Positions 1,274-34,162 of a stretch of 44,964 nucleotides of DNA are shown here, piece after piece. The translations under genes were made by a program, and so were the position numbers. The stretch is from Bacteroidota bacterium (GTDB taxonomy: Bacteria > Bacteroidota > Ignavibacteria > Ignavibacteriales > Melioribacteraceae), in NCBI GenBank assembly GCA_023381535.1, contig JAMCSN010000364.1, positions 1 through 44,964 on the forward strand, written 5' to 3'. The first letter of the stretch is position 1, and each line of letters opens with the position of its first letter. The notes under the pieces are model-generated. The model searched no databases. It was not told the origin of the DNA and was given only the letters and a program-made list of their open reading frames with translations.

Positions 1274-4200
1274 ATGAAAAACGATCCCCTAAAATATTTT
1301 AGGCTCAATCCTATAAAAGCTGCTCGTGTTTCCGAAGTTAGCGAAGCAACGGCTTCTTCGGATATTCCTCCGGAGGAACGAGTTAACTTTCATATCGGCA
1401 ATCCGGTGCAGGATAAAGAACTGTACTCGGCTTATCTGCGTATTGCTCTCGGCATCGATATAAGAAAAGAAAATCTAACCGAAGACGATCTCGATTCTTT
1501 TATTGAAGAACTTGGCTGGGTGAACGAAGACAAAAAGAAAGTCGAGCTGATTCTTTCGCTGATAAAAAAGAGCGCACCGTACATGCCGCGCGGAGGATTC
1601 AACAAAAAAGATCCGAACTACCTCGCAAAATATTTTAGTGAATGGTTAACAAAGCAGCAGCAGGAACCGTTATCGTATGATCTAGGAGAGATTACCGGCA
1701 ATCGCGAGGTGATACTTGCTTCCGGAGGAGTGATTGAAGCGCTGCGGATTTTGCTCCATGCGCTTTCGAGTTTTCTGACTTACCGTCCCGCAAAAATTTT
1801 TTTGTATGATTTTTCTTTACCGGAACATCTTCAGACTTTTGAATCGCTGAAATTTAGAACTCTCCCTTCCGAAGAAAAAAATTTTCTTCGTGAACTGGAA
1901 TATGAGTTAAAACAAAGCTCATCTTTGCCAACGTTTTTAGTCCTTGGAGGTATTACCAAAGAGGAGACAAGAAGAAATCTCCGGCAGTTGAGTTTGGAAT
2001 ATCCTCTCTTTTTTATTGAAGTCAACGAAGCGCCGAATCATCTTTCGCTTGCACGCGAAGCAAAAATGATGAATCGTGTGTTGAGAGTTCTTACACCAGG
2101 AATATTTTCGCATGAGCTGAAAAATCTTTCAACGGTTTTTATTGCCGGCAGTTCCGATATGCTGAAAGTTGTCGAGACAATTCAATTCCAGCTAAAAGGT
2201 ACCCCGTCCGCCTCAGAAGTTGAATTGCTTTCATTCCTACTGAAGGAAAATATTTTTGGAAAAGAAAACAAAGAACCGGAAAATGAAATTGTTGTTGAAC
2301 CGGCATATGAGCATTCTCAGCTTCCCATAATCGGCAATAATCCACTCAAGATTTATGCGAAGCAGTTTGAAGATAAGCTCAGTTCAATCATCGAACAAAA
2401 AGCAAAAGTTGTTGAAGATATAGTCGCGAATCTGTCTCCAGGCGAAAACTATTTTTCATCCAGGACCGAACAGTTGTTAGCGTACTTTCTAAATGATAAA
2501 TTTTCCGGCAAGGATACGAGAGAATGTTGTGATGAATTTGTTGGTAACATTCACTCCGACGTTTCAAATTCCGAAGTTGTTAAAAGTTTTCTTTCAGCTT
2601 TCTTGAGTCATCATCCCGAGTACAACGCCAAGAACACTCTTGTTGTAAGCGGCTCTTCTCGTACTGCATTGGGACTGCTCGGGTTTCATTGCGGCATCAG
2701 AGAAGTTGTTATTCCGGATTTAAGCTGGACGTACGAACATTGTTTCCCATCAGTTTCAGTGATTCCATTGACCGATGATTACGAGCTTGATGTTGATGGG
2801 ATTATTGATGAAGTCAAAAATAAATTAGCGGTCGATCCGAACTGGAAAAGTTATGGCGCCGTTGCGTTGAATAATCCTCATAATGCAACCGGACAGGAAT
2901 TTAATCCCGACGACGTGAAGCGTTTAGTTAAATGGTTGCTTGAAAGAAATATTTTTGTGATCGACGACCTTTCTTATCAAAATGTGGCGCCGATCGACGG
3001 ACTGAAAGAAATCAAAACAATCCGGCAGTTAACAGATGAACTTCACGGCAACGGTTACATAAGCGATGAGCACGCAAAACATTTGATCACGGTTCATTCG
3101 CTTTCCAAAACCGATTCATTTGCCGGCGCGCGATTGTCTGTTATTGAAATTCATCACGATGAACTTTACCAAAGATTTAAAAAGATTAACGACACAATCA
3201 AACCAAACATTGCGGCGATCTTTACGGCGTATCTTTTTTATCGAAGCAAAACAGAAACTGCAAATGCTTACTGGCGGTTGAGAAATAAAATTTTCAAAGA
3301 GCGGATGGATTCGCTCGAGCAAGCTGTTGACATTCTTCCGAAGACTCGAAACAGATTCGATATAAAAATCAAAGCGCCGAAAGGCAGTATGTATCCGCAG
3401 ATGATAATCTATAAACTTCCATCCGGGTTGTCGCTCGATTGGCTCTCGTCGGGATTGGCGCGGCAGGGAATTGGACTTGTGCCGCTTTCCACATTTGCCC
3501 GCACAGAAAAAGGTTTTGAAATCGGCCGCAAAACTTTTCGTTTAACTTTGGGCGGAACGGACAACGCTGAAATTCTTTTGAAGAAAACAAGAAGAGTATT
3601 GATCGATCTGAACCGGATGATCGCGGAAGAAGCCGCGCATTACAATCGTAAAAAATTTGAAGAGAAATCGCTTTCGATAAAAAAATCATCATCGCCGAAA
3701 GATTACGTTTCTGTTTGGACTTCCATCGAAAAACAAATTCTAGATGAGTGCCATAATGTTTCTCTGAATCGGCTGATTCAGAATAACGAAGAATGGCGTG
3801 ATAAAGAATACCGAAAAAGATTTTCGGAAGAATTTTTATCGGAAAGACTTTCGCTGTTTAGACGGAGATTCAATGATCGGGTGATGATTGCCGATGATTT
3901 GATTGAAACTGTCCGTGCCGATAAAGGAAAATCTCTCGTCGCGAGACTTGAGGAAGAATTCTACAAAGATAATCTTGAACGGCGTGAAAAAGTTTTTCGC
4001 GAAAGATTGTACGACCGTACGGTTCATCCGACACAAATGTACTCGCTGAGATCGGAATTAAATTTTGAAGAGTTAATCGAACGTATAATTAAGAACAGAG
4101 GTATTCCGGCTACTCTCATTCAAAAGACCGCGCAAGAATTGATAAGGGAATATTTTGGATTAAACGTTGCAATTTCTTCCAGCGAAGAACCATCTGAGTT

Positions 4201-6886
4201 GATTCTCGATCTTAAATCAATGATTGCCGCAGAAAATTATTTTCTGCTTTATTCCGAAGAACCGCATCAAACATTTTTGTCTTTCTGGGGAGATTGGGAC
4301 GGCAGCAACAGACCGTCGGGACAAGGTCACAGCTTGGTTGCGGCGGTTTTAATTCGAAACGTTGCGCAGCAATCACGACTGCTACAAGCACTTTTGAGGG
4401 CGGATAAAACTGTTAAGATCGAAACAAGCCTGCTGAATGAAATTGAAAAACTGCCCGAAGCGAATAAACGTTTTTCAAAATTGCTGAACGAAATTACTCA
4501 GCTCACACATCAGCTTGAGAAAAGATACCGCGGCGTTCTTCCGTTTAATTTGAAGCCGGGCAAGATCAGACAGCTCGGAATGAAGATGCGCATCGCTCAA
4601 GATCCGTTGACTTCACTGTGGCATCACAACGATAGACTTGAAAGAAAAATGCTCGAGCTCAGAACGCAGAGAAGAAATGCGCTCGAATATTATTTCTCTC
4701 TCAATAAGCAAATCAGAAAAACTTTGCACGAGCTGATAAACTTCATCCCCAAGAATCTTGACAATGCTGAATTGCTGCAAGAGGCTTCATCGTACAAAGA
4801 TTTGTTGAAACGTTTTGTAATTACACCGCGCATTCATCAAAAGATGATTACTGCGCAGGATCAGTTTGCAATCGATACGACCGTTCACAACATAAACGAG
4901 ATAAATGAAATTGCTGCCAAATACGGAAATCCGGGAATGGTAATGGCGCTGCAGGTTAGTATGTCAACTACACCTGAGGCGCTGATATCGCTCGATAGAA
5001 AAATGCGTGCGCGACGTGAACAATCGTTACGCGACAATCACGATCTCGAAATTCCGTCGGTCCGTCTCGTTCCGCTTTTTGAGGACATCGATGCATCGAA
5101 GAATTTGAAAAACTATTTGAACAAGATTTGGGAATATTCTCTTCAGAGCAGAAGACTGAATCAAACTACCGGTGAAAGATTTAACGAAATAATCAGCGAA
5201 GTATTTATTGCCGGTTCGGATTTGAGTCAGCAAGTTGGGCAAGCCGCCGGAATGAATTTGTTTAAAGAAGCAAAGTATGAATTGATTTCTTGGCTTTCGG
5301 AAAAAGAATTGGTTGGCAAAGTAAGAATGAAAATGGGAAGCGGCGAACCGATGCAGAGGCAAGGCGGTTATTACGAACCGAACGCCGGTCGTTCTGTTTT
5401 CATAAAATCCGGTGATAACGAAAAAAGATTTTCGGAACATCTCAGCAAATCGACAAAGCAAAGTACAGTGTACGCCCGGACTCCGCTGCTTGGAGTTTTT
5501 TCTGAGGGCGATTTGCGCACATTCCAAAGCAACATTTCGGAGAAGTTGAGATACCTTCCGGTTAGTGAACTTTCACAATTGCTTTTTCATGTGAAGGAAT
5601 CGCAAAAGTTTTATGAAACCGAAATTGTTCGCGCGGGCGAACCATTGGTAGAAACACGTCTGCAATTCAAAACGCGCGGACTGAAAGAATTGGAACGTCT
5701 CACCATCGGGTTCAAAGATAAAATGTTTGATGAATTTCTGAATCACTTCACCGAAAACTTTAGACAAATTCTTTACGGAAGGGAAGAGGACGTTGTCGGC
5801 ATTCATATCATATCGTATTTCATAGCAAGAACAACGCCGTCGTTAAGAGACAGACCAACCGTGCGACCCGGAAAAGGTGATTCCGGAAACGACAGTCAGA
5901 AAATTCTTAGAAAAATTTCGGAGATGATTCCGTTTTCTCGTTACGGAAGTCTGTTGCGCGCGATCGCGCATAATCAGTCACAAACCGCGGTTCTGGGAAT
6001 AAACCAATTAACCACCGGACTTTTCCGTGCGCTGGATAGTTTTGCGCAGAAAGAATTTGCTTCGGGCGAAGCATCATCATTCATCGAAGACAGAATTCTT
6101 CCGCATCTTCCAGTTTATGAAATTTTGCATACACTCAGAATTTATCAAGACGAAAAGTTGCAGTACCTTGGCAAATTGGAAAATGCTTTCCCAGCCGGCA
6201 ACTCTGCGTTCCTGGCTTTGCGTGAAGACATGGACTCGTTAAATAAATATTTAATTCTGTTTCAACGCGAACTGCTGCGGCGACACGGATTAAACGTTAA
6301 TGATTTCTTCGAAGCCGATAAATTTATTCCCGATCTTCTGCCGACACTGCGACCCGACATTGCGGTTTTGCTTCAGCAAAATTTATTTAACACCGATCCG
6401 GAAACATTTTTATCGGACATTCACGGAAACGTTGATCCGGCTTGGGTTGAATCGGTAAAGAAATTACTCGGAGTTCCGGAAGAAGTTAAATCATGGCGGA
6501 AGAAAATTTGGGATTTGCTCGAACAGCCGGTGTTTCAGCGTGTTGCAAGTTTTGTCGAGCTTGCGATTGCACTGCATTCATTGGCATCGAAAAACGGTTC
6601 TGCGGAACTTTCACTCGGTTCAAGAAAAATAAAACTGCCGACAAATCTTTCGCACGTTATCAAAGTTTCTAACGATGATAACATGCATCAGTTCCTCGCT
6701 GCGGCGTTTGAATATTTGTCAATCGTTTCCGAAGGAATGGTTGAAGTGCCGATCAATATTATACGCGCAGTTAAGGAAGTGGAACGGATTATAAAAATTG
6801 AAGAGCAGGCGCTTTCTCCAAAACAGCAGGACCTATTGAGATTTTATCTTCTGCAAATTGCGCGTCTTACAGGAGAAAACGGATAA
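1274..6886 (+). CDS. Giant fusion: two aminotransferase-fold regions plus a PEP carboxylase-like C-terminus
   Basis: An 1870-residue protein. Residues about 35-330 resemble a class I/II aminotransferase (ASGG at 149-152) but show no clear PLP lysine. Residues about 400-780 form a second, intact-looking domain: N533-G540 (NNPHNATG), IDDLSYQN, the Schiff-base lysine K612 in HSLSKTDSFAGARLS, and FRLTLGG for the substrate arginine. From about 800 to the end, phosphoenolpyruvate carboxylase landmarks appear in order: TVHPTQ (H918), GDWDGSN (W1008 where the enzyme has Arg), VPLFEDID (E1270, a metal ligand), AGSDLSQQVG (D1316 ligand kept, catalytic Lys replaced by Q1319), MGSGEPMQRQGG (R1362), LLRAIAHNQSQ (about 1560) and a terminal TGENG resembling the carboxylase RNTG end. 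The fold is therefore probably carboxylase-like, but activity is doubtful. PEP carboxylase makes oxaloacetate, which aspartate aminotransferases use, so coupling or sensing of that step is possible but unproven. Confidence 0.7.
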   Translation: MKNDPLKYFRLNPIKAARVSEVSEATASSDIPPEERVNFHIGNPVQDKELYSAYLRIALGIDIRKENLTEDDLDSFIEELGWVNEDKKKVELILSLIKKSAPYMPRGGFNKKDPNYLAKYFSEWLTKQQQEPLSYDLGEITGNREVILASGGVIEALRILLHALSSFLTYRPAKIFLYDFSLPEHLQTFESLKFRTLPSEEKNFLRELEYELKQSSSLPTFLVLGGITKEETRRNLRQLSLEYPLFFIEVNEAPNHLSLAREAKMMNRVLRVLTPGIFSHELKNLSTVFIAGSSDMLKVVETIQFQLKGTPSASEVELLSFLLKENIFGKENKEPENEIVVEPAYEHSQLPIIGNNPLKIYAKQFEDKLSSIIEQKAKVVEDIVANLSPGENYFSSRTEQLLAYFLNDKFSGKDTRECCDEFVGNIHSDVSNSEVVKSFLSAFLSHHPEYNAKNTLVVSGSSRTALGLLGFHCGIREVVIPDLSWTYEHCFPSVSVIPLTDDYELDVDGIIDEVKNKLAVDPNWKSYGAVALNNPHNATGQEFNPDDVKRLVKWLLERNIFVIDDLSYQNVAPIDGLKEIKTIRQLTDELHGNGYISDEHAKHLITVHSLSKTDSFAGARLSVIEIHHDELYQRFKKINDTIKPNIAAIFTAYLFYRSKTETANAYWRLRNKIFKERMDSLEQAVDILPKTRNRFDIKIKAPKGSMYPQMIIYKLPSGLSLDWLSSGLARQGIGLVPLSTFARTEKGFEIGRKTFRLTLGGTDNAEILLKKTRRVLIDLNRMIAEEAAHYNRKKFEEKSLSIKKSSSPKDYVSVWTSIEKQILDECHNVSLNRLIQNNEEWRDKEYRKRFSEEFLSERLSLFRRRFNDRVMIADDLIETVRADKGKSLVARLEEEFYKDNLERREKVFRERLYDRTVHPTQMYSLRSELNFEELIERIIKNRGIPATLIQKTAQELIREYFGLNVAISSSEEPSELILDLKSMIAAENYFLLYSEEPHQTFLSFWGDWDGSNRPSGQGHSLVAAVLIRNVAQQSRLLQALLRADKTVKIETSLLNEIEKLPEANKRFSKLLNEITQLTHQLEKRYRGVLPFNLKPGKIRQLGMKMRIAQDPLTSLWHHNDRLERKMLELRTQRRNALEYYFSLNKQIRKTLHELINFIPKNLDNAELLQEASSYKDLLKRFVITPRIHQKMITAQDQFAIDTTVHNINEINEIAAKYGNPGMVMALQVSMSTTPEALISLDRKMRARREQSLRDNHDLEIPSVRLVPLFEDIDASKNLKNYLNKIWEYSLQSRRLNQTTGERFNEIISEVFIAGSDLSQQVGQAAGMNLFKEAKYELISWLSEKELVGKVRMKMGSGEPMQRQGGYYEPNAGRSVFIKSGDNEKRFSEHLSKSTKQSTVYARTPLLGVFSEGDLRTFQSNISEKLRYLPVSELSQLLFHVKESQKFYETEIVRAGEPLVETRLQFKTRGLKELERLTIGFKDKMFDEFLNHFTENFRQILYGREEDVVGIHIISYFIARTTPSLRDRPTVRPGKGDSGNDSQKILRKISEMIPFSRYGSLLRAIAHNQSQTAVLGINQLTTGLFRALDSFAQKEFASGEASSFIEDRILPHLPVYEILHTLRIYQDEKLQYLGKLENAFPAGNSAFLALREDMDSLNKYLILFQRELLRRHGLNVNDFFEADKFIPDLLPTLRPDIAVLLQQNLFNTDPETFLSDIHGNVDPAWVESVKKLLGVPEEVKSWRKKIWDLLEQPVFQRVASFVELAIALHSLASKNGSAELSLGSRKIKLPTNLSHVIKVSNDDNMHQFLAAAFEYLSIVSEGMVEVPINIIRAVKEVERIIKIEEQALSPKQQDLLRFYLLQIARLTGENG

Positions 6887-7137: not shown

Positions 7138-7228
7138 CTTTGCGGTCTCCGCGTTTTGTTCATTGCGTCTTTGCGAGAAAGATTTTTCACGCCAAGCCGC
7201 TGGGAATACGCAAAGTCCGCGAAGAAAG
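7138..7228. repeat. Imperfect palindromic intergenic repeat
   Basis: The stretch has a left half with CTTTGCGG, TCCGCG and GCGTCTTTGCGAGAAA, and a right half with TTTTTCACGCC, ACGCAAAGTCC and GCGAAG that is roughly its reverse complement. From memory, GCGTCTTTGCG-type palindromes are dispersed between genes in many environmental genomes. It lies between the attenuator terminator and trpE. An in-frame extension of trpE upstream of 7247 would be translated from this repeat, which argues against it. Confidence 0.5.
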
Positions 7229-7246
7229 ACAACAGAGAAAAATATT

Positions 7247-8725
7247 ATGGATTACAAAACGTTTTTAGAATTGTCGAAGACATACAACAAGATTCCGGTT
7301 TATGAAAAGATAACCGCCGATTTGCTGACGCCTGTTCTCGCTTATTTAAAGATAAGAGGGAAAGGTTCAAACAGTTTTCTATTGGAATCCGTCGAAGGAA
7401 TCGGAAGATTGGCGCGTTATTCATTCATCAGTAAGAATCCTTCAAAGATTTTTATGAATGAAGGCGAACAACTCACCATCATCGAATCGGACAAAAGCAC
7501 GACAGTCACAAAAAATATTTTTGATTATCTCTCCGAAGAAATTTCAAAATCCAAAGACCCAAAGATTGAAGAGCTGCCCGATTTCACCGGCGGCATTGTG
7601 GGTTACCTTGGTTACGAAAACGTTGCATTGATAGAAGACGTTATAAAATTCAGCGGTGAAAAACAGATCGACATTCCCGATTCCATGTTCGGTGTTTACG
7701 ATACATTGATTGCGTTCGATCATTACAAACACCAAATAATTTTAATTAGGAATGTGAATATTGATTCGTACATGAATCCAGAAACAGCTTATGCCGGTGC
7801 GAAGGAAGAACTCCGGCAACTACGCGCACAACTTAACGCGCCGTTAGATTTCGCGTTGAAGTTTTCAGCACAACAAAATTTTGCGAACGGCTCAGACAAG
7901 CAGACGTTTTACGATTTCGTTGAGAAATGTAAAGACAATATTGTTGAAGGGGATGTTTTCCAGATCGTTCTATCGAAAAGATTTTCAACGGAGTTCACGG
8001 GCGATCTTCTTAATGTTTACCGAGCGCTTCGGATTATCAATCCATCCCCGTATATGTATTTTATGGAGTTTGCAAACGATCTAACGGTTATCGGAACTTC
8101 GCCTGAAGACTTGTTGAAAGTTAAAAACAAGCGGGCAACAATTTTGCCTATCGCTGGAACAAGACATCGCGGAAATAATCGAGCCGAAGATTTGCAAATC
8201 GAAAAAGAACTTTACGCCGATCCGAAAGAAGTTGCCGAACACGTTATGCTTGTTGACCTCGCGCGCAATGATCTAGGGCGCGTTTGCAAATACGGAAGTG
8301 TTGAGGTTACGGAAAACATGACCGTTCACCGATTCTCACATGTCATGCACATCGTGTCGCGTGTTGAGGGAAATCTTGATGAGGACAAAAATTGTATCGA
8401 TGCTTTAAAGGCAAGTTTCCCCGCGGGAACGGTTTCCGGCGCGCCGAAGATCAGAGCAATCCAGTTGTTGAATGAATACGAAAATTTGCGGCGTGGAATT
8501 TATGCCGGTGCAGTGGGATACATTGATTTCAAAGGCAATCTCGATATGTGCATTGCTATCAGAACATTATTTGCAAAAGGAGAAAAAATTTATTGGCAGG
8601 CAGGCGCCGGATTGGTTGCGGACAGCAAAGCAGAATTTGAGTTGCAAGAAATAAATAATAAATCGGCAGCATTGGTTAACGCGCTAAAATATGCAGAGGT
8701 GATTGATGAAAGTATTGGTAATTGA
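7247..8725 (+). CDS. trpE: Anthranilate synthase component I
   Basis: Converts chorismate to anthranilate using ammonia delivered by TrpG, the first committed step to tryptophan. It is 492 residues from the ATG at 7247 (MDYKTFLELSK); the 28 codons upstream lie in an intergenic repeat and are not protein-like. The N-terminal region carries LLES (in SNSFLLESVEG), the family's Trp feedback site. The C-terminal chorismate-binding domain has GDVFQIVLSKRF, the PIAGTRHRG segment, FPAGTVSGAPKIRA and the GAGLVADS end motif, so it looks active and Trp-inhibited. It is the first gene of the trp operon and its end overlaps trpG by 20 bp, consistent with translational coupling. Length and motifs are normal. 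Confidence 0.95.
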   Translation: MDYKTFLELSKTYNKIPVYEKITADLLTPVLAYLKIRGKGSNSFLLESVEGIGRLARYSFISKNPSKIFMNEGEQLTIIESDKSTTVTKNIFDYLSEEISKSKDPKIEELPDFTGGIVGYLGYENVALIEDVIKFSGEKQIDIPDSMFGVYDTLIAFDHYKHQIILIRNVNIDSYMNPETAYAGAKEELRQLRAQLNAPLDFALKFSAQQNFANGSDKQTFYDFVEKCKDNIVEGDVFQIVLSKRFSTEFTGDLLNVYRALRIINPSPYMYFMEFANDLTVIGTSPEDLLKVKNKRATILPIAGTRHRGNNRAEDLQIEKELYADPKEVAEHVMLVDLARNDLGRVCKYGSVEVTENMTVHRFSHVMHIVSRVEGNLDEDKNCIDALKASFPAGTVSGAPKIRAIQLLNEYENLRRGIYAGAVGYIDFKGNLDMCIAIRTLFAKGEKIYWQAGAGLVADSKAEFELQEINNKSAALVNALKYAEVIDESIGN

Positions 8726-9272
8726 TAATTACGATTCGTTCACGTTCAACCTCGTCCAGCTCATCGGCAAGTTGACCGGTGATGTTATTGTTAGACGGAA
8801 TGACAGAATATCGTTGGACGAAATAAATTTGTTGAAGCCGGATAAAATTGTTGTGTCGCCTGGTCCAGGACGGCCGGAAGATTCAAAAGTTTCGCTAGAT
8901 GTTTTCAAAGAGTGCGGGGAAACGGTTGATGTTCTTGGCGTATGTCTCGGTCATCAAGGAATTGGAATTTCATTCGGCGGAAAAGTTGTGAAAGCGTCAA
9001 CCTTGATGCACGGTAAAGCTTCGCAAATAATTCATGATGGAAAAAATATTTATAAAAATGTTCCGCAGAAGTTTGAAGCGGGAAGATATCACTCGCTTGT
9101 CATCGACCGCGATTCTTTACCGGATGAACTTAGCATAACATCGGAAACCGAAGACGGAATAATCATGGGAGTTCGTCACAAAAAATACCGGGTTGAAGGA
9201 ATTCAGTTTCACCCTGAATCGGTACTAACTCCCGAGGGAGAAAAAATAATTAAAAACTGGTTGGCATTATGA
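8706..9272 (+). CDS. trpG: Anthranilate synthase component II, glutamine amidotransferase
   Basis: A 188-residue class I glutamine amidotransferase that hydrolyses glutamine and passes ammonia to TrpE. It has the VIDNYDSFTFNLVQ start typical of TrpG/PabA, the oxyanion segment VVSPGPGRPED, the nucleophile cysteine in GVCLGHQGIG, and the His-Glu pair in FHPESVLTPEG. The ATG at 8706 is preferred; a TTG codon directly before it could also start. It overlaps trpE by 20 bp and shares ATGA with trpD. As there is no separate pabA here, it might also serve folate synthesis, but nothing in the sequence decides this. Confidence 0.94.
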   Translation: MKVLVIDNYDSFTFNLVQLIGKLTGDVIVRRNDRISLDEINLLKPDKIVVSPGPGRPEDSKVSLDVFKECGETVDVLGVCLGHQGIGISFGGKVVKASTLMHGKASQIIHDGKNIYKNVPQKFEAGRYHSLVIDRDSLPDELSITSETEDGIIMGVRHKKYRVEGIQFHPESVLTPEGEKIIKNWLAL

Positions 9273-10288
9273 AAGAATACTTAGAAAAAATTATCGAAGG
9301 AAATCACCTCTCGTTCGACGAAGCGTACAAGGTAATGTACTCGGTAATGAGCGGCGAGGTGAACAATTCTAGAATTGCATCGCTGCTTACCGCACTGAAG
9401 ATGAAAAAGGAAACGCCGGAAGAAGTTGCCGGATTTGTAAAAGCGATGCGTGAGAAAGTAATCAAATTAAAATGCGACGACGAAAACGTGATAGACGTTT
9501 GCGGAACCGGAGGAGACGGATCCGGTTCGTTCAACATTTCAACCGCGGTTGCATTTGTGGTTGCCGGCGCCGGAGTGAAAGTTGCAAAACACGGTAACCG
9601 TTCAATCTCCAGCAAAAGCGGAAGCTCGGATGTGTTGCATGAACTTGGCGTTGATGTGCAGCTCTCGCCAGAATTATCCGAGAAGGCGCTCAATGAAATC
9701 GGAATAGCATTTCTTTTCGCGCCGCTTTATCACCCCGCAATGAAGCACGTTGCGCCGATTCGAAAGGAACTTGAGTTCAGATCAATCTTCAACATTCTGG
9801 GACCGCTGACAAATCCAGCCGGAACAAAAAGACAGTTGCTCGGAACGTTTAATGATGCGACCGCGAAACTGATGTCGGAAGCGGTAAAATTTCTTGAGAT
9901 GAAAAAAGTCTGCTTCCTCTGCACCAATAATTCATTTGATGAAGTAAGCTTAACTCATCCGACAAATGTGATTGAAGCGACCGGGAATAATTCGCTTCAC
10001 ATTTACGAATTGACACATGAATCATTCGGTTTTCCAAAATTGCAATTAAGTGACATACAAGGTGGAACGGCAAAGGAGAATGCGGAGATAATTCACAAAA
10101 TATTTTCCGGCAAAGAAAAGTCGCCAGGTTATTTTGTTGTGGCTGCCAATGCTGCGTTGGCGCTCAAAGTTGCCGGTGTCTCGAACGATCTGAAAGAGTG
10201 TATCGCGATTGCGGAAGAATCGATTCTATCCGGAAGAACATTGGAGAAACTTCAACAGTTGAAAGATTTCGGTGAGAAAAATAAATGA
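9269..10288 (+). CDS. trpD: Anthranilate phosphoribosyltransferase
   Basis: Transfers phosphoribose from PRPP to anthranilate, the second step of the Trp branch. It is 339 residues, a normal length. The PRPP-binding motif CGTGGDGSGSFNIS (about 74-87) is intact, followed by VAKHGNRSISSKSGSSDVLHELG, and RSIFNILGPLTNP lies in the middle. The start shares an ATGA overlap with the trpG stop and the end shares one with trpC, so it is tightly coupled in the operon. Confidence 0.95.
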   Translation: MKEYLEKIIEGNHLSFDEAYKVMYSVMSGEVNNSRIASLLTALKMKKETPEEVAGFVKAMREKVIKLKCDDENVIDVCGTGGDGSGSFNISTAVAFVVAGAGVKVAKHGNRSISSKSGSSDVLHELGVDVQLSPELSEKALNEIGIAFLFAPLYHPAMKHVAPIRKELEFRSIFNILGPLTNPAGTKRQLLGTFNDATAKLMSEAVKFLEMKKVCFLCTNNSFDEVSLTHPTNVIEATGNNSLHIYELTHESFGFPKLQLSDIQGGTAKENAEIIHKIFSGKEKSPGYFVVAANAALALKVAGVSNDLKECIAIAEESILSGRTLEKLQQLKDFGEKNK

Positions 10289-11079
10289 GTTTTCTTCAAA
10301 AAATATTGGATGTAAAGAAAGAAGAAGTCGCAGAGCTTCACCGGAATTTTACACGTGAGAGTTTTCGAAGTTCTGAAATGTTCGGTGAGAGAAGACTCAG
10401 CTTGGAATCGGCGCTGAGCGATAAAACGAAAATCAACATCATAGCGGAAGTCAAAAAGGCGAGTCCTTCCAAAGGAATTTTGAAAAACGATTTTGATCAT
10501 GCTGCGATCGCGAAAAGTTATATGAAATGCGGAGCCGACGCAATATCAGTTTTGACCGACAAACAATTTTTTCAAGGGAATATTTCATTCTTAAGAGACA
10601 TCGGCAATATTAAAACTGTTCCGCTTCTTAGGAAGGACTTTATAATAGATGAATTTCAGATTTTGGAAGCGAAGGCAACCGGAGCCGATGCGATTTTACT
10701 TATCGCTGAAGCGTTGTCCGCCCAACAAATTAACGAACTAACCATTGTAGCCGAAGAAAACGACTTGGAAGTTCTGCTCGAGCTTCATTCAGAAAAACAG
10801 CTTGACAAAATTGATTTTACGAGAAACAAAATAATCGGCATTAACAATCGCGATTTGGAAACATTTAAGGTGGATATCAGCACGACCGCCAAAATTGCAA
10901 AACAGATTCCGTCTGATACATCTGTCGTTTCGGAAAGCGGTATAAGTTCTAAGCAAGCAATTGAGCAGTTGAAGAAATTGAAAGTCGATGCCGTTCTCGT
11001 CGGTGAACATTTTATGAGGTCAGATGACCTTGATAAGTCGCTTAAAGAATTTGTTGGATGGTGCAAACATGAAAGTTAA
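10285..11079 (+). CDS. trpC: Indole-3-glycerol phosphate synthase
   Basis: Closes the indole ring from 1-(2-carboxyphenylamino)-1-deoxyribulose 5-phosphate, releasing CO2. A TIM barrel of 264 residues with IIAEVKKASPSKG (catalytic Lys and Glu region), DAISVLTD, LLRKDFIIDEFQILEA, GINNRDLETFKVD and VVSESGISS in the expected order. It is monofunctional, with trpF as a separate gene directly after it, unlike the enterobacterial TrpC-TrpF fusion. It overlaps trpD by 4 bp and trpF by 11 bp. Confidence 0.95.
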   Translation: MSFLQKILDVKKEEVAELHRNFTRESFRSSEMFGERRLSLESALSDKTKINIIAEVKKASPSKGILKNDFDHAAIAKSYMKCGADAISVLTDKQFFQGNISFLRDIGNIKTVPLLRKDFIIDEFQILEAKATGADAILLIAEALSAQQINELTIVAEENDLEVLLELHSEKQLDKIDFTRNKIIGINNRDLETFKVDISTTAKIAKQIPSDTSVVSESGISSKQAIEQLKKLKVDAVLVGEHFMRSDDLDKSLKEFVGWCKHES

Positions 11080-11683
11080 GATTTGCGGAATCACCAACCT
11101 CGAAGATGCATTGCTGTGCTGTGGATATGGCGTGGATGCAATTGGGTTCATCTTTTACGAAAAAAGTAAAAGGTACATTTCATTCGAACTCGCCGAATCG
11201 ATTTCGAAACATCTACCGCCTTTTGTTTTCAAAGTCGGCGTATTTGTTAACGAAGAAACAGAAAAAGTTAATCAAGCAGCAAAACGGATTGGATTGAACG
11301 CAGTTCAGCTTCACGGAGATGAATCGCCGGAGTACATTGAAAAAATAAATTATCCGGTTATCAAATCGTTCCGCATCAATGAAGCTTTTGATTGGAAGAC
11401 AATCGACAGATTTGAGAATTGTGATATTCTGCTCGACACATTTTCAACCGATCAAATCGGTGGGACTGGAAAATCGTTCGACTGGAATTTGATACCGGAA
11501 AAGTTAAGAAGCAGAATAATTCTCTCCGGCGGGATTACAATCGATAAACTGGAATTCATTTTCGATAGAATAAAACCGGCAGCAATTGACCTTTCATCAT
11601 CGCTGGAATCATCACCGGGCAAGAAGGACAAACAAAAGGTTACAGAATTTCTAAAACGCTTTAACGAACTTAGGAGTAAATAA
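11069..11683 (+). CDS. trpF: Phosphoribosylanthranilate isomerase
   Basis: Isomerises N-(5-phosphoribosyl)anthranilate to the substrate of TrpC. It has 204 residues from the ATG at 11069, giving the family start MKVKICGIT with the catalytic cysteine. A longer reading from 11024 would only add sequence that overlaps trpC. VQLHGDESPEYI, the aspartate in ILLDTF, and LSGGITIDKL with the phosphate-binding DLSSSLESSPGKKD end are present. It overlaps trpC by 11 bp and its TAA shares one base with the next ATG. Confidence 0.94.
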   Translation: MKVKICGITNLEDALLCCGYGVDAIGFIFYEKSKRYISFELAESISKHLPPFVFKVGVFVNEETEKVNQAAKRIGLNAVQLHGDESPEYIEKINYPVIKSFRINEAFDWKTIDRFENCDILLDTFSTDQIGGTGKSFDWNLIPEKLRSRIILSGGITIDKLEFIFDRIKPAAIDLSSSLESSPGKKDKQKVTEFLKRFNELRSK

Positions 11684-12723
11684 TGTTGATAATTATGGGA
11701 CTCGAGTCGCCTCGAGAAGATATAAATAAAGTAAAAGAAAAAATCATTGAGCTTGGCTGCACACCGCACGAAATTCCCGGCAGTTCAAAACTCGCAATCG
11801 GAATTACAGGTGCAACTCATTTGCTGAAAGAGGAAGATTTCCAGATGATGCATTCGGTTCAAGAAGTTGTGCGCGTTACAAAAAAGTTTAAGCTCGTCAG
11901 CAGGCAAATGAAAAGTAACGACACCATCATTGATTTCGGCGGACCGACAGTGGGCGGCAAAGAACTTTTTGTTATCGCCGGTCCATGTTCCGTAGAGAAC
12001 CGAGAACAGACATTTGAGATTGCCGGTCAGCTTAAAGAGATGGGAATAAATTTCTTTCGCGCCGGCGCTTACAAACCGAGATCGAGCCCGTACACGTTTC
12101 AAGGGTTAAAAGAAAAAGGTTTGGAAATTCTTGACGGGGTAAAACAAAAATTTGGATTGAAGATTGTTACCGAGGTTATGAACTCTCAATCGCTGCAATC
12201 GGTTTGCGAAGTCGCAGATATAATCCAGATCGGCGCACGCAACATGCAGAATTATTCTTTGCTGGAAGAAATCGGCGCAACGCAAAAACCGGTTCTGCTG
12301 AAACGTGGAATGTCCGCCACCGTTGAAGATCTTCTTCTTAGCGCAGAATACATAGCCGCGCAAAGCAACTATAATATTATTTTGTGCGAAAGAGGAATTA
12401 GAACTTTTGAAACCTCAACTCGCAATACGCTGGACTTGAACGCGATTCCGGTGATCAAACAATGGTCGCATTTGCCCGTCATTGTTGACCCATCGCACGG
12501 TGTTGGTATTTGGGATAAGGTTTCGCAGATGTCGTTAGCGGCGATCGCATGCGGTGCAGATGGTTTGATGATTGAAGTTCACAACGATCCGGGAAATGCT
12601 TTGTCGGACGGATATCAATCGTTAACACCGAAAAAATTTAAGGAGTTGTTGAACAAATTGAATGAACTGGCTCCGATTGTTAACAAGGAAATGAAATTAT
12701 ATGAAAACGCGAACAGTTTATAA
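11683..12723 (+). CDS. aroF: 3-deoxy-7-phosphoheptulonate (DAHP) synthase, type I-beta
   Basis: Condenses PEP with erythrose 4-phosphate, the entry step of the shikimate pathway. Of 346 residues, the first 75 or so form a ferredoxin-like regulatory domain ([20 protein letters not shown]), as in the Thermotoga-type enzyme where it binds aromatic amino acids. The barrel carries [62 protein letters not shown] and VDPSHGVG, all hallmarks of the family. It sits inside the trp operon between trpF (1-bp overlap) and trpB (23-bp overlap), so supply of the common pathway is tied to Trp demand. Known feedback ligands of related enzymes are Tyr and Phe; which is used here cannot be seen. Confidence 0.93.
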
Positions 12724-13912
12724 TTTTCCGGACGCAAATGGAAAGTTTGGAATCTACGGCGGCAAGTTTGTACCGGAGACTCTGATCTCAGCGCTTGATG
12801 AGTTGGAAAAACTTTATCGAGAGACGAGACAAGATAAAAAATTTCAAAACGAACTTGATTCGCTGCAGAAGGAATACAACGGACGACCAACGCCGCTCAC
12901 TTTTGCAAAACGTCTTACCGATCATTTCGGAAAAGCAAAAATTTATTTGAAGCGGGAAGATTTGTGTCATACCGGCGCGCATAAACTGAATAACGCACTC
13001 GGGCAAATTCTTCTTGCTAAAAAGCTCGGCAAAACAAGAATCATCGCAGAAACCGGCGCGGGTCAGCACGGAGTTGCAACGGCAACAGTCTGCGCAAAGT
13101 TTGGATTGAAATGCGTTGTGTACATGGGTGAAGTTGATATCGAACGGCAGAAGTTAAATGTCTTCAGAATGAAAATGCTCGGCGCCGATGTCGTTCCCGT
13201 TACTTCCGGCAGCCGAACGTTGAAAGACGCAACCAACGAAGCGATCCGCGATTGGGTTACAAATGTTTCGGATACACATTACATAATCGGTTCTGTCGTT
13301 GGTCCGCATCCGTATCCAATGATTGTTCGCGATTTTCAATCGGTGATTGGCGCCGAGACAAAAGAGCAAATAAAAAATTTTGAGAATCGTTTGCCGGATT
13401 ACATTGTTGCGTGCGTCGGCGGCGGTTCAAATGCGATCGGAATATTTTATCCTTTCATAAATGATGAATCTGTAAAACTAATTGGCGTTGAAGCCGCTGG
13501 ATACGGATTGAATTCCGGAAAACATTGTGCAACATTAACGCTAGGCGAGCCGGGAGTTTTTCAAGGAATGAAAACTTATCTGCTGCAAGATGCTAACGGA
13601 CAAATTTCCGAAGTACATTCAATTTCTGCCGGACTCGATTATCCCGGCGTTGGTCCCGAACACAGTTTGCTTAAAGATATTGAACGCGTGCGGTATGCTT
13701 CCGTAACCGACCAAGAAGCGCTCGATGCTACGCTGCTGCTTTCTAAACTTGAGGGAATTCTTCCGGCGCTTGAAACCGCGCACGCGATTGCATACATGAA
13801 CAAGCTGATGCCGGCTACAAATAAAGATGAGATTGTTGTTGTGAATATCAGCGGCAGGGGAGATAAGGACTTGAATACAATTATCAGTCAAATCGGCGAG
13901 AAAGTTTTATGA
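12701..13912 (+). CDS. trpB: Tryptophan synthase beta chain
   Basis: A PLP enzyme that joins indole and serine to make tryptophan, working with TrpA. It has 403 residues, the normal length for TrpB1. It starts with the typical [13 protein letters not shown], has the Schiff-base lysine K95 in [23 protein letters not shown], the phosphate-binding VGGGSNAIG, and the [12 protein letters not shown] and SGRGDKD ends. The start lies inside aroF (23-bp overlap) and the end overlaps trpA by 4 bp. Confidence 0.96.
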
Positions 13913-14694
13913 AGAAAATTTCAGATCACATTGAACAAATAAATAAGTCGGGCAGAAAAGCTCTTTCGATTTTTTTAACGGCTGGATTTCCGGCAAAAGA
14001 AAATTTTGTTGAACTGGCAGAAATGATTCTTGAAAGCGGCGCGGACATGCTTGAAATCGGAATCCCATTTTCCGATCCGCTCGCTGACGGTACTGTCATT
14101 CAAGCATCATCTCAGACCGCTCTTGAAAACGGAGTTACACTTAAAGATGCTTTTCATTATTGCGAAAAGATTAGTGCCAAGACAAACAAACCGTTGATAC
14201 TGATGGGTTATGCTAATCCAATTTTGAAATACGGTGTCAAAAATTTTTGCAAAGATGCGCAATCTTCCGGCGTTTCCGGATTGATTGTGCCCGACGTGCC
14301 GCTGGAAGAATATGAATCATTCTATGCAGATGAATTTAAGAATTTCGAAAAGATTCTGTTAACAACCCCGACTTCTTCCGATGAACGGATTAAAGAAATT
14401 GATAAGCTAAGCGAAGGATTTGTTTACTGTGTGAGCGTTACCGGAACTACGGGAATCAAAAATAATTTTGATGAAAACGTTTTGAAGAATTTGGAACGGA
14501 CATATTCAATCGTCAAGAAAAATAAAATGCTTATCGGTTTCGGAATTTCAAATGCAGAAAACGTAAAAACTTTCTTGCCTTATTGCGATGGAGTAATCGT
14601 CGGCAGCGCCGTCATCAAAAAAATTAGTGAAGGAAAAACAATTCCCGAAGTAGGGGAGTTTGTAAGATCATTAAGCGCAGCGTGTGAAAAATAG
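13909..14694 (+). CDS. trpA: Tryptophan synthase alpha chain
   Basis: Cleaves indole-3-glycerol phosphate to indole and glyceraldehyde 3-phosphate and channels indole to TrpB. A 261-residue TIM barrel with [12 protein letters not shown], the catalytic Glu in [14 protein letters not shown] with the catalytic Asp after it, [21 protein letters not shown], and the phosphate site [10 protein letters not shown]. It ends the operon. Only 6 bp separate its stop from the stop of the convergent gene on the other strand, and no terminator hairpin is visible in that gap. Confidence 0.95.
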
Positions 14695-14700
14695 AATTCG

Positions 14701-16782
14701 TTATTTCAGCAGAATTAATTTTTTTGTTGTGGTGGAATTTCCCGCTGTCAATTTATAAAAGTAAACGCCGCTCGGTAGATCAGTTCCATCGAACTTGATT
14801 TTGTAATTGCCTGCCGCCTTATACTCGTGTACAAAATTTGCAACTTCTCTTCCAAGCAAATCGTAAACTTTTAATTGAACATTATTCCCAGCTGATAATT
14901 TGTAAGAGATAACCGTGCTTGGGTTAAATGGATTCGGATAATTTTGGTATAGAACAAAATCTGCAGGAACAGTTTGTTCATTGCCAACAAGTGTTGGCGG
15001 AGTATAGCTTGCTGTTGCTAATATAGTTCCATAGTCGCCTGCTGCCCATGCAGTGTTATCATCAACAACATATAGACCGAACAAATCGTGAGAAGTTAAA
15101 GAATATTCCGATGCCCAAGTTGATCCGCCGTCTATGCTGTGCAACAATGTCCCTGCATCGCCAATTGCCCAAATTGAATTTTGAGAAGTCGCACTAACAA
15201 CATAAAGACTTTTTGTTATGCCGGTAGTTAGTGCAGTCCATGAAGCGCCGCCGTCATTTGTTTTTAAAATTACTCCGTTGCTTCCGGCACAAAAACCGTT
15301 GTTGGAATCATAGAAATCAATTCCGAAAAGTGTTGTGGTAACTGTGCTGTTTTGAACAAGCCAGTCCGTTCCGCCGTTTGTTGTATGAAGAATTAAACCG
15401 TTATCGCCGCAAATCCAGCCGTTCTTCGAATCGATAAACTTTACTGCAAAAAGAATGTTTGATGTGCCCGAAGTTTGGGTTGACCAATTTGTTCCACCGT
15501 CTGTTGTGTGCAGAATCAATCCCACGTCGCCGGCGACCCAGCCGCTATTCTGATCGACGAAAAATATGCTCAGTAATGTATTCTGTGTATTAGTGATTTG
15601 CTGATGCCACGTTGTTCCGCCGTCTGATGAATGAATCAAAAAGCCGGAATCACCAACGGACCAGACATTGTCCGCGCCGTTCATAGTAGCGCCGTATAAC
15701 GATGTGCCGAGTAACATATTGAGATTCGCGGACCAGTTTTTTCCGCCATCAACAGTTTTGAAAATATTTCCGTATTGGCCGACTGAAAAACCGTTCATTG
15801 AATTTGAAAAAGTTATCCAGTTAACACACGGATTATTTCCGCTCTGAATAAATTGCCAAGCATTTGTGCTTTGCTTTGAAGCGATTAATCCGAATTCACC
15901 GACTAAAATTTTTGTGCCGTTGAAAGATGAAACTCCGTTGATCGAAGATGAAATGTGAAGCGAGTCAAGAGTCCAGTTGGAACCGCTATCCGTAGATGTT
16001 AAGAATCTGCCGTTGTCGCCGACTATCAGAAAATCATTTGTTCCGTTAAAAAGAATATCGTTCAATCCGTAAGTTGTGTTTGAAGGAATTTTGTCCCAAT
16101 TGCCTCCAGAATTTGTTGTAGAATAAATTGCGCCGCGAGCACCCACTGCAAATCCGGAAGTTGAGCTGTAGAATTTTACTCTTAACAAAGCGCCGCCGGT
16201 TTGAAATTGCAAATTCCAATTCGCTCCGCCGTTTGTTGAATGAAGAATCGAGCCGTCCGAACAAACAGCCCAACCTTCATTAGCATTTATAAAGTATATG
16301 CTGTTAATGCTGATCGTTGTTGACGATCCAGGAATGTTTGCACTTTGCCAATTTGATCCGCCGTTTGTTGTGCGTAAAATTGTAGCGCCGTCGCCGCCGA
16401 CAAATCCTTGAGAATTGTTGAAAAAAAATACAGTGTTCAAACCATTTGTTGTGCCGCTGTTCTGAGCGAGCCATGTACTTCCGCCGTTGGATGTGTGAAT
16501 GATTGTTCCGTTGTCACCGACCGCCCAGACGTTCATTGAGTCGGCGCAACTAAGATCGAGAAGGTTGTCTGTGATGGCTTCCGATTGCACGTCCCATGTA
16601 GCACCTTGATTGCCACTGAACAAGATAGTTCCATAATTGCCAACAGCATATCCGAACCATTGATTATAAAACGAAATTTTCTGAATTGTGTTCCCTTGCG
16701 GAACAGGATGCTGCCATCGCCAATTATTTGCAAATAAAACGTTGGATACAATAACAACAAATATTATAAAATACTTTCTCAT
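14701..16782 (-). CDS. Secreted Ycf48/BNR-like repeat protein with type IX sorting domain
   Basis: A 693-residue exported protein. The start at 16782 (MRKYFIIFVVIVSNVLFA) is preferred over 16800 because AAGGA lies 6 bp upstream and a clean signal peptide follows. About twelve repeats of some 40 residues each end in a GG-x-x-W block (NGGSTW, NGGSNW, DGGTTW and so on) and hold a GW-x-x-G-D-x-G-x-I-L-H core. This is the Ycf48/HCF136-like or BNR beta-propeller pattern, so two stacked propellers are possible. The last 75 residues form a type A type IX secretion domain: YQNYPNPFNPSTVISY, VYDLLGREV, SGVYFYKL, KKLILLK. It should cross the outer membrane and be surface-attached or released. It lies 28 bp after the outer-membrane-like gene of the exopolysaccharide cluster and may be its last gene. 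Confidence 0.88.
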   Translation of the reverse strand: MRKYFIIFVVIVSNVLFANNWRWQHPVPQGNTIQKISFYNQWFGYAVGNYGTILFSGNQGATWDVQSEAITDNLLDLSCADSMNVWAVGDNGTIIHTSNGGSTWLAQNSGTTNGLNTVFFFNNSQGFVGGDGATILRTTNGGSNWQSANIPGSSTTISINSIYFINANEGWAVCSDGSILHSTNGGANWNLQFQTGGALLRVKFYSSTSGFAVGARGAIYSTTNSGGNWDKIPSNTTYGLNDILFNGTNDFLIVGDNGRFLTSTDSGSNWTLDSLHISSSINGVSSFNGTKILVGEFGLIASKQSTNAWQFIQSGNNPCVNWITFSNSMNGFSVGQYGNIFKTVDGGKNWSANLNMLLGTSLYGATMNGADNVWSVGDSGFLIHSSDGGTTWHQQITNTQNTLLSIFFVDQNSGWVAGDVGLILHTTDGGTNWSTQTSGTSNILFAVKFIDSKNGWICGDNGLILHTTNGGTDWLVQNSTVTTTLFGIDFYDSNNGFCAGSNGVILKTNDGGASWTALTTGITKSLYVVSATSQNSIWAIGDAGTLLHSIDGGSTWASEYSLTSHDLFGLYVVDDNTAWAAGDYGTILATASYTPPTLVGNEQTVPADFVLYQNYPNPFNPSTVISYKLSAGNNVQLKVYDLLGREVANFVHEYKAAGNYKIKFDGTDLPSGVYFYKLTAGNSTTTKKLILLK

Positions 16783-16810
16783 TGATTTCCTTAGATGCAA
16801 ATGGTGGTTT

Positions 16811-19439: not shown

Positions 19440-22400
19440 CTAAGCAGTTGAATATTTTTTTCTGATTAATTTTAGTGAAAGATACATGGCGAACAATAAT
19501 GCTACAGCCAGCGTTCCGAAAATTGCAATTCCGGTAGATGACCAGAGCGAGGTCAGATTCACTCCGTACGAAAACGCATCGCCGGCAATTAGTTCAACGT
19601 AATGTTTTCCCGGCGGAAGAAAAATGCTGTAGCAATCGTTGCCTTTCATTACAACAAATTTGTATTCGGCATTATCAATCTTAACAGAAGTCGGTTCCTT
19701 ATTTAACGAAACAAGCGTTCGGCAATCCGACTCATAAACGAATTTCAAATCTTTCATGCCGTGTGATACCGAAAGTAAATTAGCCGTGCAGGAAAGTATG
19801 TTGGTCTGAAGTTCATGCGTTGAAAAAGAAGTTATATTCTGCTCGAAGAAAGTAACTATGTGATTGCCTGCCGGAATTAAAAACAAATTTTGACGAAACG
19901 GCGCGACGGGGTAACCGTCTATGTTCAGCACTTTAATTTCTTTTGGGAGTTCTATCGAGAATGCGGTTGGCGAATTAAATTGATAGCCGTTATCCAAATG
20001 CTGATAATTAACATTTACGGATGCAGCGTAAGGGAAGAATGACATGTCTTGCGGATTCACACTCGATTCGGAATAAATTGTGAAACGCGGGGCGCCGATA
20101 GAAGCGGCATTTATAAGATGATAACTTTCTGTTCCGGTTTGAATGAGAGTAGGGAACGGCGTTATAACATTTTCTTTTCGGAAACTTAGAATGTTAAGAT
20201 CGAGCAGCAGCTTGGCGTTGCCGCCGAGTAGCGACGTGTAATACTTCCCGATGTTGATATAGCGCAGCGGATCAGTTGACCAAAGGTGTTCTGGATCTTC
20301 AACCTGTAATGTAAAATTAAATTTCTTTTGTAGCTCGATTATATTCTTCATATCCACGCCGATGTATTCGCGCAATTCCGGCGAGCCGAAACTATCCATT
20401 GCAGTTACGATAACCTCGAAACCGTTTTTCTTATGTGCTATCTGTTGGAAAGTCGAAAGCAAAGTTTCATAAACAGAATTCAATTCGTTCACTCGGTATT
20501 CCGTTATGCTGTTTTGCACAAAGGAATTATTCTTCCAATAAAATGATGAAGCCGGGTCGAATATTTTTCCCAAATCGATTCCGTACTTTTTCATTACTTC
20601 AGCTTTTGCCGATGGATGCATCGGGGTAAAAAGGTTAGGATTCTTGAATCCTTCGGCGGCTTCGAAATAAAGTTCGGCTAAATTCACGCCGTCCCAATCG
20701 TAGCTTTCAAGAAATTTTTTGAATTCATAATTCATTGCAGCAACGCATTTGGGATCGGTAAGCGATACCGGATATCTCCACGAAGGTCTCACGTCCTGAC
20801 CGAGATAATTTTTCTCGCGCCATTCGGGATGTTTGTTCCAAAATTTTTGACTTACTTGCGGAGGTTCCAACCATGCATAAACCAGAATACCGTTTGCATG
20901 GGCCAGATCGATCAAACGTTTGTAGTCGTAAGTGTATTTCGGGTATTCGTGCCAGCCAGCCGCGTGTATAACTCTTATTCCTTCTTTCACCCATTGCTTC
21001 ACCAAGTTCTCAACGCTGAATGTCCGGCGGAAACCGGGATCAAAATAAACTTCCATATTGTCGCGACGGACAAACGGGCGTAAATGGAAATATCTCTTTA
21101 CGTATTCTATTAAATATGGATAAAGACTATATCCTTCCTGGGTGTAAGGATCGAAACGGGAATTGATAAAAATTAATTTCCCTTTGGAAATTTTTCTGCC
21201 GATCAAAATAGGCATGTGAGTGAATTCGTCGTAGCAAAAAGTTTCGTCTTTGTCGTCGGTTTCAATTTTGTTAACAAGTTCAGAATAACGCCACGCGATC
21301 GGTTCTTCCGAATAAAATTTGTCGCGTATTCTATTAACTCTTATTTGCGTTTTTGAAAAGCTTAGGTTAAACAATTTTGCAAGATCGCTTTTGGTGTCGG
21401 TTACAAGATTTCCGCCTTCTTCAACAAATTTATAAATGGCGCCGCAATCTTTGTCCTTAAGCGAATCTATGAAAGCATAAGGAACGATAAGAAGGTTGTG
21501 GTCCTTCAAATCGATTTTTTGCCCGACGAAAATTGTATCAACGTTTATGTTAACGCTCCGGAAAACCGATGCAAGCGAAGCTTGATCGTTGAAAGCGGCG
21601 CCCTTTGCGAAATGATTCCATAAAATAATTGGCCGCGCTTCCTGCCAGTCTTCATCCGAAACAAAAATGTTCTGATAAAATTTTTCCGCCGATGCAGTGA
21701 TCTTTTCGAGAAACGTCAACTCCCGTTCATGAAATTCGGTTGGTTCGGCGCGGTACAACTCTCCCGGTTCAAGCGAAATACTTTTTGTTATTTGTCCGGT
21801 AATTCTTTTTTCAGAAAACGTTTTGCTTTTTATTTCACCGGTTCTGCTGTAGTAACCTTCGGCAAGAAATTGATCGTCCAAAGCAAGAGTGTAACTTTGA
21901 GAACCGGTAAGAATTATTCTGTCTTTTGTTTTTACCCAGTTGGTTTCGTCCTGAAGATCAATGTAAGTATAACCCAGCGCTTTGATGCCGTCAACAAGAG
22001 TGCTTAACAAATCCAAGTCGAGAAATTCGTGAAAGAAACATGCTGCAAAACCGTCGCGGACGTTGAGATTTGTCTTAGCGCCTTTAATAATATTCTGAAC
22101 AGCGGCACGGCTTACACTTTTATCGTCATCAAGCGGAACATATCCCAAATTTTCCGGATAAATTTTTTGTCCGAACAAATCGTTGTTGATGATGTAAGGG
22201 AAGTACTGGCTGTGTTCAAAATCCTCAACTGCAAGACGTTGTTCCATTGCCGAGCTGAAATATTTTGAAACTGTCCGGTAAAGTTTAAACGAGGCAGTAT
22301 AGTGCGGTGTCTCCCATGCAATCGGGTACAAACCGTTCTTCATTAATTCTTGAAGTCCGGTCTCAATCTTACTTGCAATTCCGGCTTCGGTTTCATCTTT

Positions 22401-23411: not shown

Positions 23412-23415
23412 AGAC

Positions 23416-24588: not shown

Positions 24589-24906
24589 TTGATCTCTTCT
24601 AGCGGTTAAATTAATAACAGAGATATTTTGATGACAAAGATAAGGAAACGGCACTATTTATATTTGCGTCCTTAAGATATATCAATAATAGTAAGGCGAT
24701 TGTGAGCATTCTCACCGTAGCAAAAACCGGCACTGTGCGTCTATTTAAGACTATACCGAACTGTGGTAAACCAGACTTCTCGGATTAAAATCGACTGCAG
24801 TTTGTAACCGAAACTTAACTGATACGAAATGCATTCATATTTTGAAAGATCGTTTGTAAGTTTGAACAATCAAAAATTTGCTACTAAAAAAATTGCATTC
24901 GATACA
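24589..24906. other. Divergent intergenic region between wecB and the TonB receptor
   Basis: This gap must carry the promoters of both the minus-strand exopolysaccharide cluster and the plus-strand receptor. A TATATTTG at 24659-24666 fits the Bacteroidota TAnnTTTG element on the plus strand, but no TTTG lies at the usual distance. GTGAG and CTCAC flank a 4-base gap near 24705, a weak dyad. An alternative, less likely receptor start at 24829 falls here. Confidence 0.35.
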
Positions 24907-27258: not shown

Positions 27259-27266
27259 CTTGACGA

Positions 27267-31671: not shown

Positions 31672-31715
31672 AAACAAATACTTCATAACAAATCAAATAA
31701 TATTCGAGACTTAAT

Positions 31716-34121: not shown

Positions 34122-34162
34122 TTAATCAATTAGAAAATAATTCAAACAATAAAAGAAAAATT

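Follow-up and report, generated by a model that had tools for sequence, protein, structure and literature searches.

What does a protein do that joins an aminotransferase to a domain resembling phosphoenolpyruvate carboxylase (PEPC)? The question is raised by a 44,964-nucleotide stretch of the Bacteroidota contig JAMCSN010000364.1, referred to here as the window. It carries near its start a single uninterrupted open reading frame of 1870 codons. A preliminary description had named motifs of both enzymes in this frame, and all of them sit at the residues given. By its predicted models, the product is two enzyme folds within one chain (Table 1). The layout proposed earlier, an aminotransferase followed by a PEPC-like half, is carried by structure and weakly by sequence.

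The N-terminal half is a fold-type I (class I/II) PLP aminotransferase with a complete PLP site and a predicted transaminase activity. The Aminotran_1_2 domain (PF00155) matches residues 444-763 at 54.4 bits, against a gathering score of 19.7 (E 1.5e-14), and no other Pfam domain reaches E<=1 anywhere in the 1870-residue protein. Conservation was counted in 167 fetched members of 1800-1900 residues, drawn from 236 proteins, with at least 45% identity to the window protein (median 57%). N533, P535, N537, D565, Y568, K612, R620, and R756 are each found in 167/167. We take N533/N537, D565, Y568, K612, R620, and R756 to be the PLP lysine and the pocket residues (Asn, Asp, Tyr, Lys, and two Arg). 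With these standard residues present and PF00155 above its gathering score, the PLP domain is intact, as had been claimed. The 25 NCBIfam models shown for the fusion protein are aminotransferase and PLP-enzyme models, all below cut-off. None of the aminotransferase models comes near its cut-off, the best being GntC (33.8 of 415 bits). Identity of this half to the listed fold-type I structures is 12-21%, and the VIA alignment of LysN with the N-terminal model begins at residue 3 of the model and residue 2 of the chain.

The aminotransferase is interrupted by an insert of ~340 residues (61-400). In the model, the insert has seven strands in the same order as in the aminotransferase core and is possibly a degenerate aminotransferase large domain. 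None of its 79 matches has a Pfam domain other than PF00155. A tandem second aminotransferase may be present in this region, though hhalign against the aminotransferase gives E 0.044, no better than four control pieces from the PEPC-like half (0.043-0.43).

The C-terminal half is supported as a PEPC-type fold, a relation that rests mainly on structure and weakly on sequence. The AF2 model of residues 810-1870 has a pLDDT of 81.6 and a pTM of 0.82. All 47 of the 47 Foldseek hits at E<=0.001 are PEP carboxylases. The alignment of the model with archaeal-type PEPC (3odm) takes in 475 of 526 residues (3.3 A), and families missing from the listed fold matches are not counted as excluded. The preliminary description had proposed looking here for a PEPC match and an alpha/beta-barrel fold, and the predicted model does match PEP carboxylases. 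Whole-length Foldseek TM-scores against the model are just 0.27-0.35, which suggests that the subdomains are placed differently from those of PEPC.

Ordinary sequence searches do not identify this half. Pfam, NCBIfam, and PDB sequence and profile searches with the window protein and profile A1 returned no PEPC other than a weak PF14010 match. PF00311, the bacterial/plant PEPC family, has no Pfam match in the full protein or the C-terminal domain and is absent from the 25 families listed at E<=10 when 39 C-terminal members are scanned. One relative (G360) matches it at E 4.8e-4, below cut-off. PF14010, the archaeal-type family, is matched by 2/39 C-terminal members (best E 0.066), none over cut-off, and its one match over cut-off in the 30 genomes with the fusion (G291:C121) lies inside a canonical PEPC. 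PF25443 (ANG-1-like) is matched by 5/39 (best E 4.4e-4). Profile-profile alignment comes closer. Against eight PEPCs of the same class, hhalign gives E 0.0078 and 0.032 (probability 5.1% and 1.6%), compared with 0.3 for an N-terminal-half control. Against 27 class PEPCs, the E-value is 0.0015 (probability 16.7%), and with profile A1 it is 0.00033 (38%). These 27 come from 28 loci tried; the remaining locus, L112, contains a stop codon and yielded no ORF of 800 residues. PADLOC found no defense-system match, and no viral occurrence of the fusion protein was found.

Table 1. Positions in the window of the fusion protein, its parts, its selected residues, and the adjoining gene (E. coli PEPC residues in parentheses).
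Feature	Position	Strand	Remarks
SPFH/Band-7-like membrane protein, 320 aa	276..1238	+	directly upstream of the fusion, 35-bp gap
Aminotransferase/PEPC-fold fusion protein, 1870 aa	1274..6886	+	single unbroken ORF
Residues 1-60, probably the aminotransferase's N-terminal arm	1274..1453	+	extent inferred, boundaries approximate
Residues 61-400, inserted alpha/beta domain	1454..2473	+	from model secondary structure
Residues 401-793, aminotransferase core	2474..3652	+	PLP-site residues conserved
K612, presumed PLP lysine	3107..3109	+	167/167
Residues 810-1870, predicted PEPC-fold domain, 1061 residues	3701..6883	+	AF2 model and fold searches
H918 in VHPTQ (PEPC TAHPT, His138)	4025..4027	+	167/167
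R1186 on third barrel strand FVITPRIH (candidate Arg396 counterpart)	4829..4831	+	strand order in model; 167/167; not paired with LDIRQ by profile alignments
E1270 in PLFED (Glu506, metal ligand)	5081..5083	+	167/167
D1316 in GSDLSQ (Asp543, metal ligand)	5219..5221	+	167/167
Q1319 (Lys546 position)	5228..5230	+	Gln 167/167
S1356 (Arg581 position)	5339..5341	+	Ser 153/167, Cys 8, Asn 2
R1362 (Arg587)	5357..5359	+	166/167, 1 gap
R1562 in LLRAI (Arg699)	5957..5959	+	167/167; next segment without Arg at the Arg713 position

The residues of the putative barrel can be compared with those of PEPC. Eight candidate barrel strands are present in the model, at 105-107, 193-198, 372-379, 416-420, 455-460, 500-503, 541-545, and 607-609 in the numbering of the domain (residues 810-1870). 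By order, they correspond to the PEPC segments TAHPT, GSWxGGDRDG, LDIRQ, ISM, PLFE, GYSD, FHGRGG, and TEQGE. The hhalign alignment gives the same pairing for all but LDIRQ and TEQGE, which are matched elsewhere. Residue pairing uses these low-probability profile alignments (16.7%, 38%) together with strand order, without superposed coordinates, and His138 and Arg699 fall in a low-confidence extension. The E. coli residue numbers (His138, Arg396, Glu506, Asp543, Lys546, Arg581, Arg587, Arg699, and Arg713) and their roles are taken here as given, with Lys546, Arg581, and Arg713 presumably gripping the PEP phosphate at the substrate site.

The catalytic counterparts proposed earlier for His138, Glu506, Asp543, and Arg587 are borne out, three of them being invariant and the fourth differing by a single gap. 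As just 12.4% of the columns in the C-terminal part reach 99% conservation, the joint invariance of the retained residues is unlikely to be background. The replacements of Lys546 by Gln and Arg581 by Ser had also been claimed and are found throughout or in most of the family. At the Arg713 position there is no Arg, and the extended alignment places Q1570 there (167/167). In the 27 class PEPCs, the same positions are Lys in 27/27, Arg in 26/27, and Arg in 25/27 with Lys in the other 2. The Lys546 position does not appear to be drifting, because a different residue is invariant there. The protein ends in GENG, as compared with RNTG in PEPC.

A third proposed replacement, of Arg396 by Trp, does not survive. 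W1008 sits in the counterpart of GSWxGGDRDG, where hhalign pairs it with PEPC's own Trp, and a tryptophan in place of an active-site arginine was therefore dropped. The candidate for Arg396 is R1186 by strand order versus R1130 by the extended hhalign alignment, and both are found in 167/167. The case for an altered phosphate site, as predicted from these alignments, thus rests on Lys546, Arg581, and Arg713.

The fusion is a family rather than a single case. At E<=1e-3, 770 homologues are found among 7988 scored candidates. The best 120 of the 770 are 1835-1892 residues long with 99-100% query coverage, and all carry PF00155. The pairing of the two domains, which the preliminary description had suggested surveying in related genomes, is thus kept in these 120. 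The relatives seen are the best 120 of 770 and the best 120 of 259. Two contig pieces titled Bacteroidetes bacterium isolate DBS2-4.bin16 come closest, with 93 and 97% identity, and two full-length relatives at 68-70% identity are Ignavibacteria/Ignavibacteriales MAGs. Source names of the homologues include Ignavibacteria, Melioribacter, Stygiobacter, and Bacteroidota. Among the matches listed, Caldithrix abyssi, Acidobacteria, Bryobacteraceae, Anaerolineae, and Methanococcaceae also occur; as many sources are MAGs, such outlying names may stem from binning errors.

Within the class to which the Ignavibacteria MAG G001 belongs, the fusion occurs in 30/245 genomes, in 5 of them in pieces. In a phylum sample, a full or near-full protein is found in 10/198 genomes, and 32 more have weak matches to the aminotransferase part only. 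Stand-alone relatives of the C-terminal half may exist; several C-terminal-only proteins among the matches listed come from short contigs. In some MAGs, as at loci L122 and L124 (G065 and G288), two adjacent ORFs take the place of the single fusion ORF, either through sequencing error or as a real split.

The gene directly upstream of the fusion encodes a 320-residue SPFH/Band-7-like membrane protein. Band_7 (PF01145) is matched by 11/17 orthologues (best E 5.1e-6), the window copy being without a match. The protein has one N-terminal hydrophobic segment, with a hydropathy peak of 3.1 at residues 2-16 and values of at most 1.13 beyond residue 30, followed by an SPFH-like domain. A C-terminal coiled coil is likely, judged by eye from the alignment. 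A profile of the 17 orthologues at E<=1e-20 finds the partner in 31/245 class genomes, namely all 30 with the fusion and G352, where the partner ends ~20 bases from the contig end on its downstream side. The class samples of 245 genomes searched for the fusion, PEPC, and the partner are taken as the same genomes. In 29/30, the partner shares contig and strand with the fusion and lies directly upstream of it; estimated gaps run from -33 to 263 bp, and 28/30 are within 250 bp. In the thirtieth (G367), the fusion is truncated by the start of its contig, and the partner sits on a different one. Clustering alone found the partner in 17/20 loci, and the profile search added the other three. The co-occurrence has a Fisher p of 1e-37, uncorrected for kinship. 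By its genomic linkage, which is near-perfect, the partner is near-obligate.

The reading tentatively favored, at somewhat under an even chance, is a bifunctional enzyme, associated with a membrane scaffold, in which transamination is coupled to metal-enolate chemistry and the usual PEP phosphate site is missing. The PLP domain would take the amino group off an amino acid and so produce a 2-oxo acid; the amino acid is probably dicarboxylic (e.g., aspartate). The 2-oxo acid, oxaloacetate or a relative, would be held in the PEPC-fold barrel on Mg or Mn bound by E1270 and D1316. The metal site would stabilize an enolate for decarboxylation, carboxyl transfer, or C-C bond formation, with His918 and Arg1362 acting at the carbon end. 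The SPFH partner would concentrate the enzyme at the membrane. With the presumed phosphate contacts gone (Lys546 to Gln, Arg581 to Ser, and Arg713 to a residue other than Arg), PEP itself is not expected to be the substrate. A more specific proposal is possible though doubtful: that the SPFH scaffold is dedicated to one giant enzyme, and that the C-terminal half represents a third PEPC-fold family whose reaction is not PEP carboxylation (but, e.g., oxaloacetate decarboxylation or 2-oxo-acid carboligation) and is fed directly by the attached insert-bearing aminotransferase.

The preliminary description had offered two alternatives, a regulatory pseudo-enzyme and an enzyme with altered chemistry. 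The second fits better, because the metal ligands and the His are invariant, the Arg587 counterpart is nearly so, and Gln is fixed at the Lys546 position. A sensing role is possible but unlikely. The barrel would then bind a dicarboxylate or 2-oxo acid and control the aminotransferase or the SPFH scaffold, which is consistent with the three lost phosphate contacts, the near-obligate partner, and plant PEPC entries among the fold matches whose titles name malate, citrate, or aspartate complexes. Such conservation of the metal, His, and Arg587 positions is unusual for a dead site, however, and the PLP site is complete.

The wider gene content bears on whether the protein could be a PEPC after all. 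ATP-dependent PEP carboxykinase (ATP-PEPCK) is present in 28/30 fusion genomes and the GTP-dependent form in 4/30. Three of the 30 (G054, G065, and G367) have, downstream of the fusion and within about 4.3-6.5 kb, an aminotransferase, an ATP-PEPCK, and a second aminotransferase; in G367, two opposite-strand ORFs lie between the fusion and this run. For the four aminotransferases of G054 and G367, the best-matching models are those of aspartate aminotransferase, though below cut-off, and those of G065 are assigned by clustering only. The three loci are perhaps one clade. Together with the two folds, they place the fusion, provisionally, near the PEP/oxaloacetate/aspartate node. A true PEPC would have a rebuilt phosphate site (e.g., K1353, H1566, or other invariant residues) and pass oxaloacetate to the aminotransferase, making aspartate from PEP and bicarbonate. 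This is decidedly unlikely. The retained counterparts of His138, Glu506, Asp543, Arg587, and Arg699, the three PEPCK loci, and the 24/30 fusion genomes without a PF00311 enzyme over cut-off are in its favor, but the counterparts of Lys546, Arg581, and Arg713 are lost and ATP-PEPCK is nearly universal in these genomes. Canonical PEPC is also independent of the fusion (6/30 genomes versus 45/215 others, Fisher p 1.0), and a role as replacement for a missing PEPC was rejected, as the fusion does not go with an absence of PEPC.

That two unrelated enzymes sharing no intermediate were fused simply to be co-localized or assembled on the SPFH scaffold is highly unlikely: no substrate evidence links the domains and the joint layout of the 120 listed homologues is consistent with a structural requirement, but aminotransferase and PEPC chemistry meet at oxaloacetate, as is established biochemistry, and PEPCK and aspartate-type aminotransferases lie beside the gene in 3/30 genomes.

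Other neighbors vary. In the window, the fusion lies upstream of trpE, trpG, trpD, trpC, trpF, a DAHP synthase gene, trpB, and trpA (7163-14694), with the DAHP synthase gene between trpF and trpB. PEP is a substrate of DAHP synthase. A link to tryptophan biosynthesis was rejected, as these neighbors are common to none of the 26 other clustered loci, apart from the PRAI gene, which forms a two-member cluster with an opposite-strand gene in L076. Downstream of the fusion in four loci (L075, L077, L078, and L079) are clade-specific neighbors, namely an OsmC-like protein, a MarR-type regulator, and a 410-441-residue protein (no NCBIfam match in L077). Three of the four have a further gene, which in L077 is the phosphoserine transaminase SerC.

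The remainder of the window contains several other genes. A Ycf48/BNR-repeat protein (14701-16800) carries a secretion sorting domain of type IX character at its C-terminus. A 1332-residue protein (19440-23438) with DUF2334 (PF10096) and a weak beta-galactosidase trimerization match is clustered on the minus strand with genes for a glycosyltransferase and a UDP-GlcNAc 2-epimerase. An outer-membrane receptor-like protein with carboxypeptidase-regulatory and Plug domains is followed by a DUF4249 protein (24829-28187). An HTH_3 regulator (28206-29711) with a weak, sub-cut-off match to IrrE-type M78 peptidases (21.3 of 22 bits) adjoins a run of acyl-CoA synthetase, 3-hydroxyacyl-CoA dehydrogenase, and thiolase genes (29869-35338).

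Each part of the fusion resembles a known system. Bacterial/plant PEPC (PF00311; 1jqn, 8ojy, 8cj8) shares the fold, whereas the fusion has no PF00311 match, a different residue at each of the three phosphate positions, and a different C-terminus. Archaeal-type PEPC (PF14010; 3odm), compared by fold, also shares it; the fusion is about twice as long, is joined to an aminotransferase, and has no member over the family cut-off. Compared with fold-type I aminotransferases such as LysN, GntC, ACC synthase, and aspartate aminotransferase, it has the ~340-residue insert and the PEPC-like domain. SPFH operons with NfeD or FtsH partners likewise link an SPFH-like membrane protein tightly to one gene, here the fusion.

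No description of the fusion, the insert, the altered PEPC site, or the SPFH pairing was found in open-licence PMC papers, which leaves the earlier remark that no protein of this layout has been described uncontradicted there. Neither "aminotransferase" nor "phosphoenolpyruvate" occurs in the main text of a 2009 survey that covers 12 prokaryotic SPFH subfamilies (PMC2636767). Another paper describes PEP carboxylases as bacterial/plant and archaeal types, with one reaction for all (PMC8100219). Each fold is known; it is their combination and its features that were not found in print, and there is a real chance that the chemistry is new.

The findings suggest an undescribed two-gene metabolic machine, made up of the fusion and its membrane-scaffold-like neighbor. 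If the favored reading is true, this is a further widespread PEPC-fold family that has the metal and His/Arg machinery without the usual phosphate site, which would suggest that the fold is capable of other chemistry. The family would then offer a natural way to test what residues a PEP carboxylase requires. With an SPFH-type gene adjoining such an enzyme, the scaffold targets of bacterial SPFH proteins would become directly testable.
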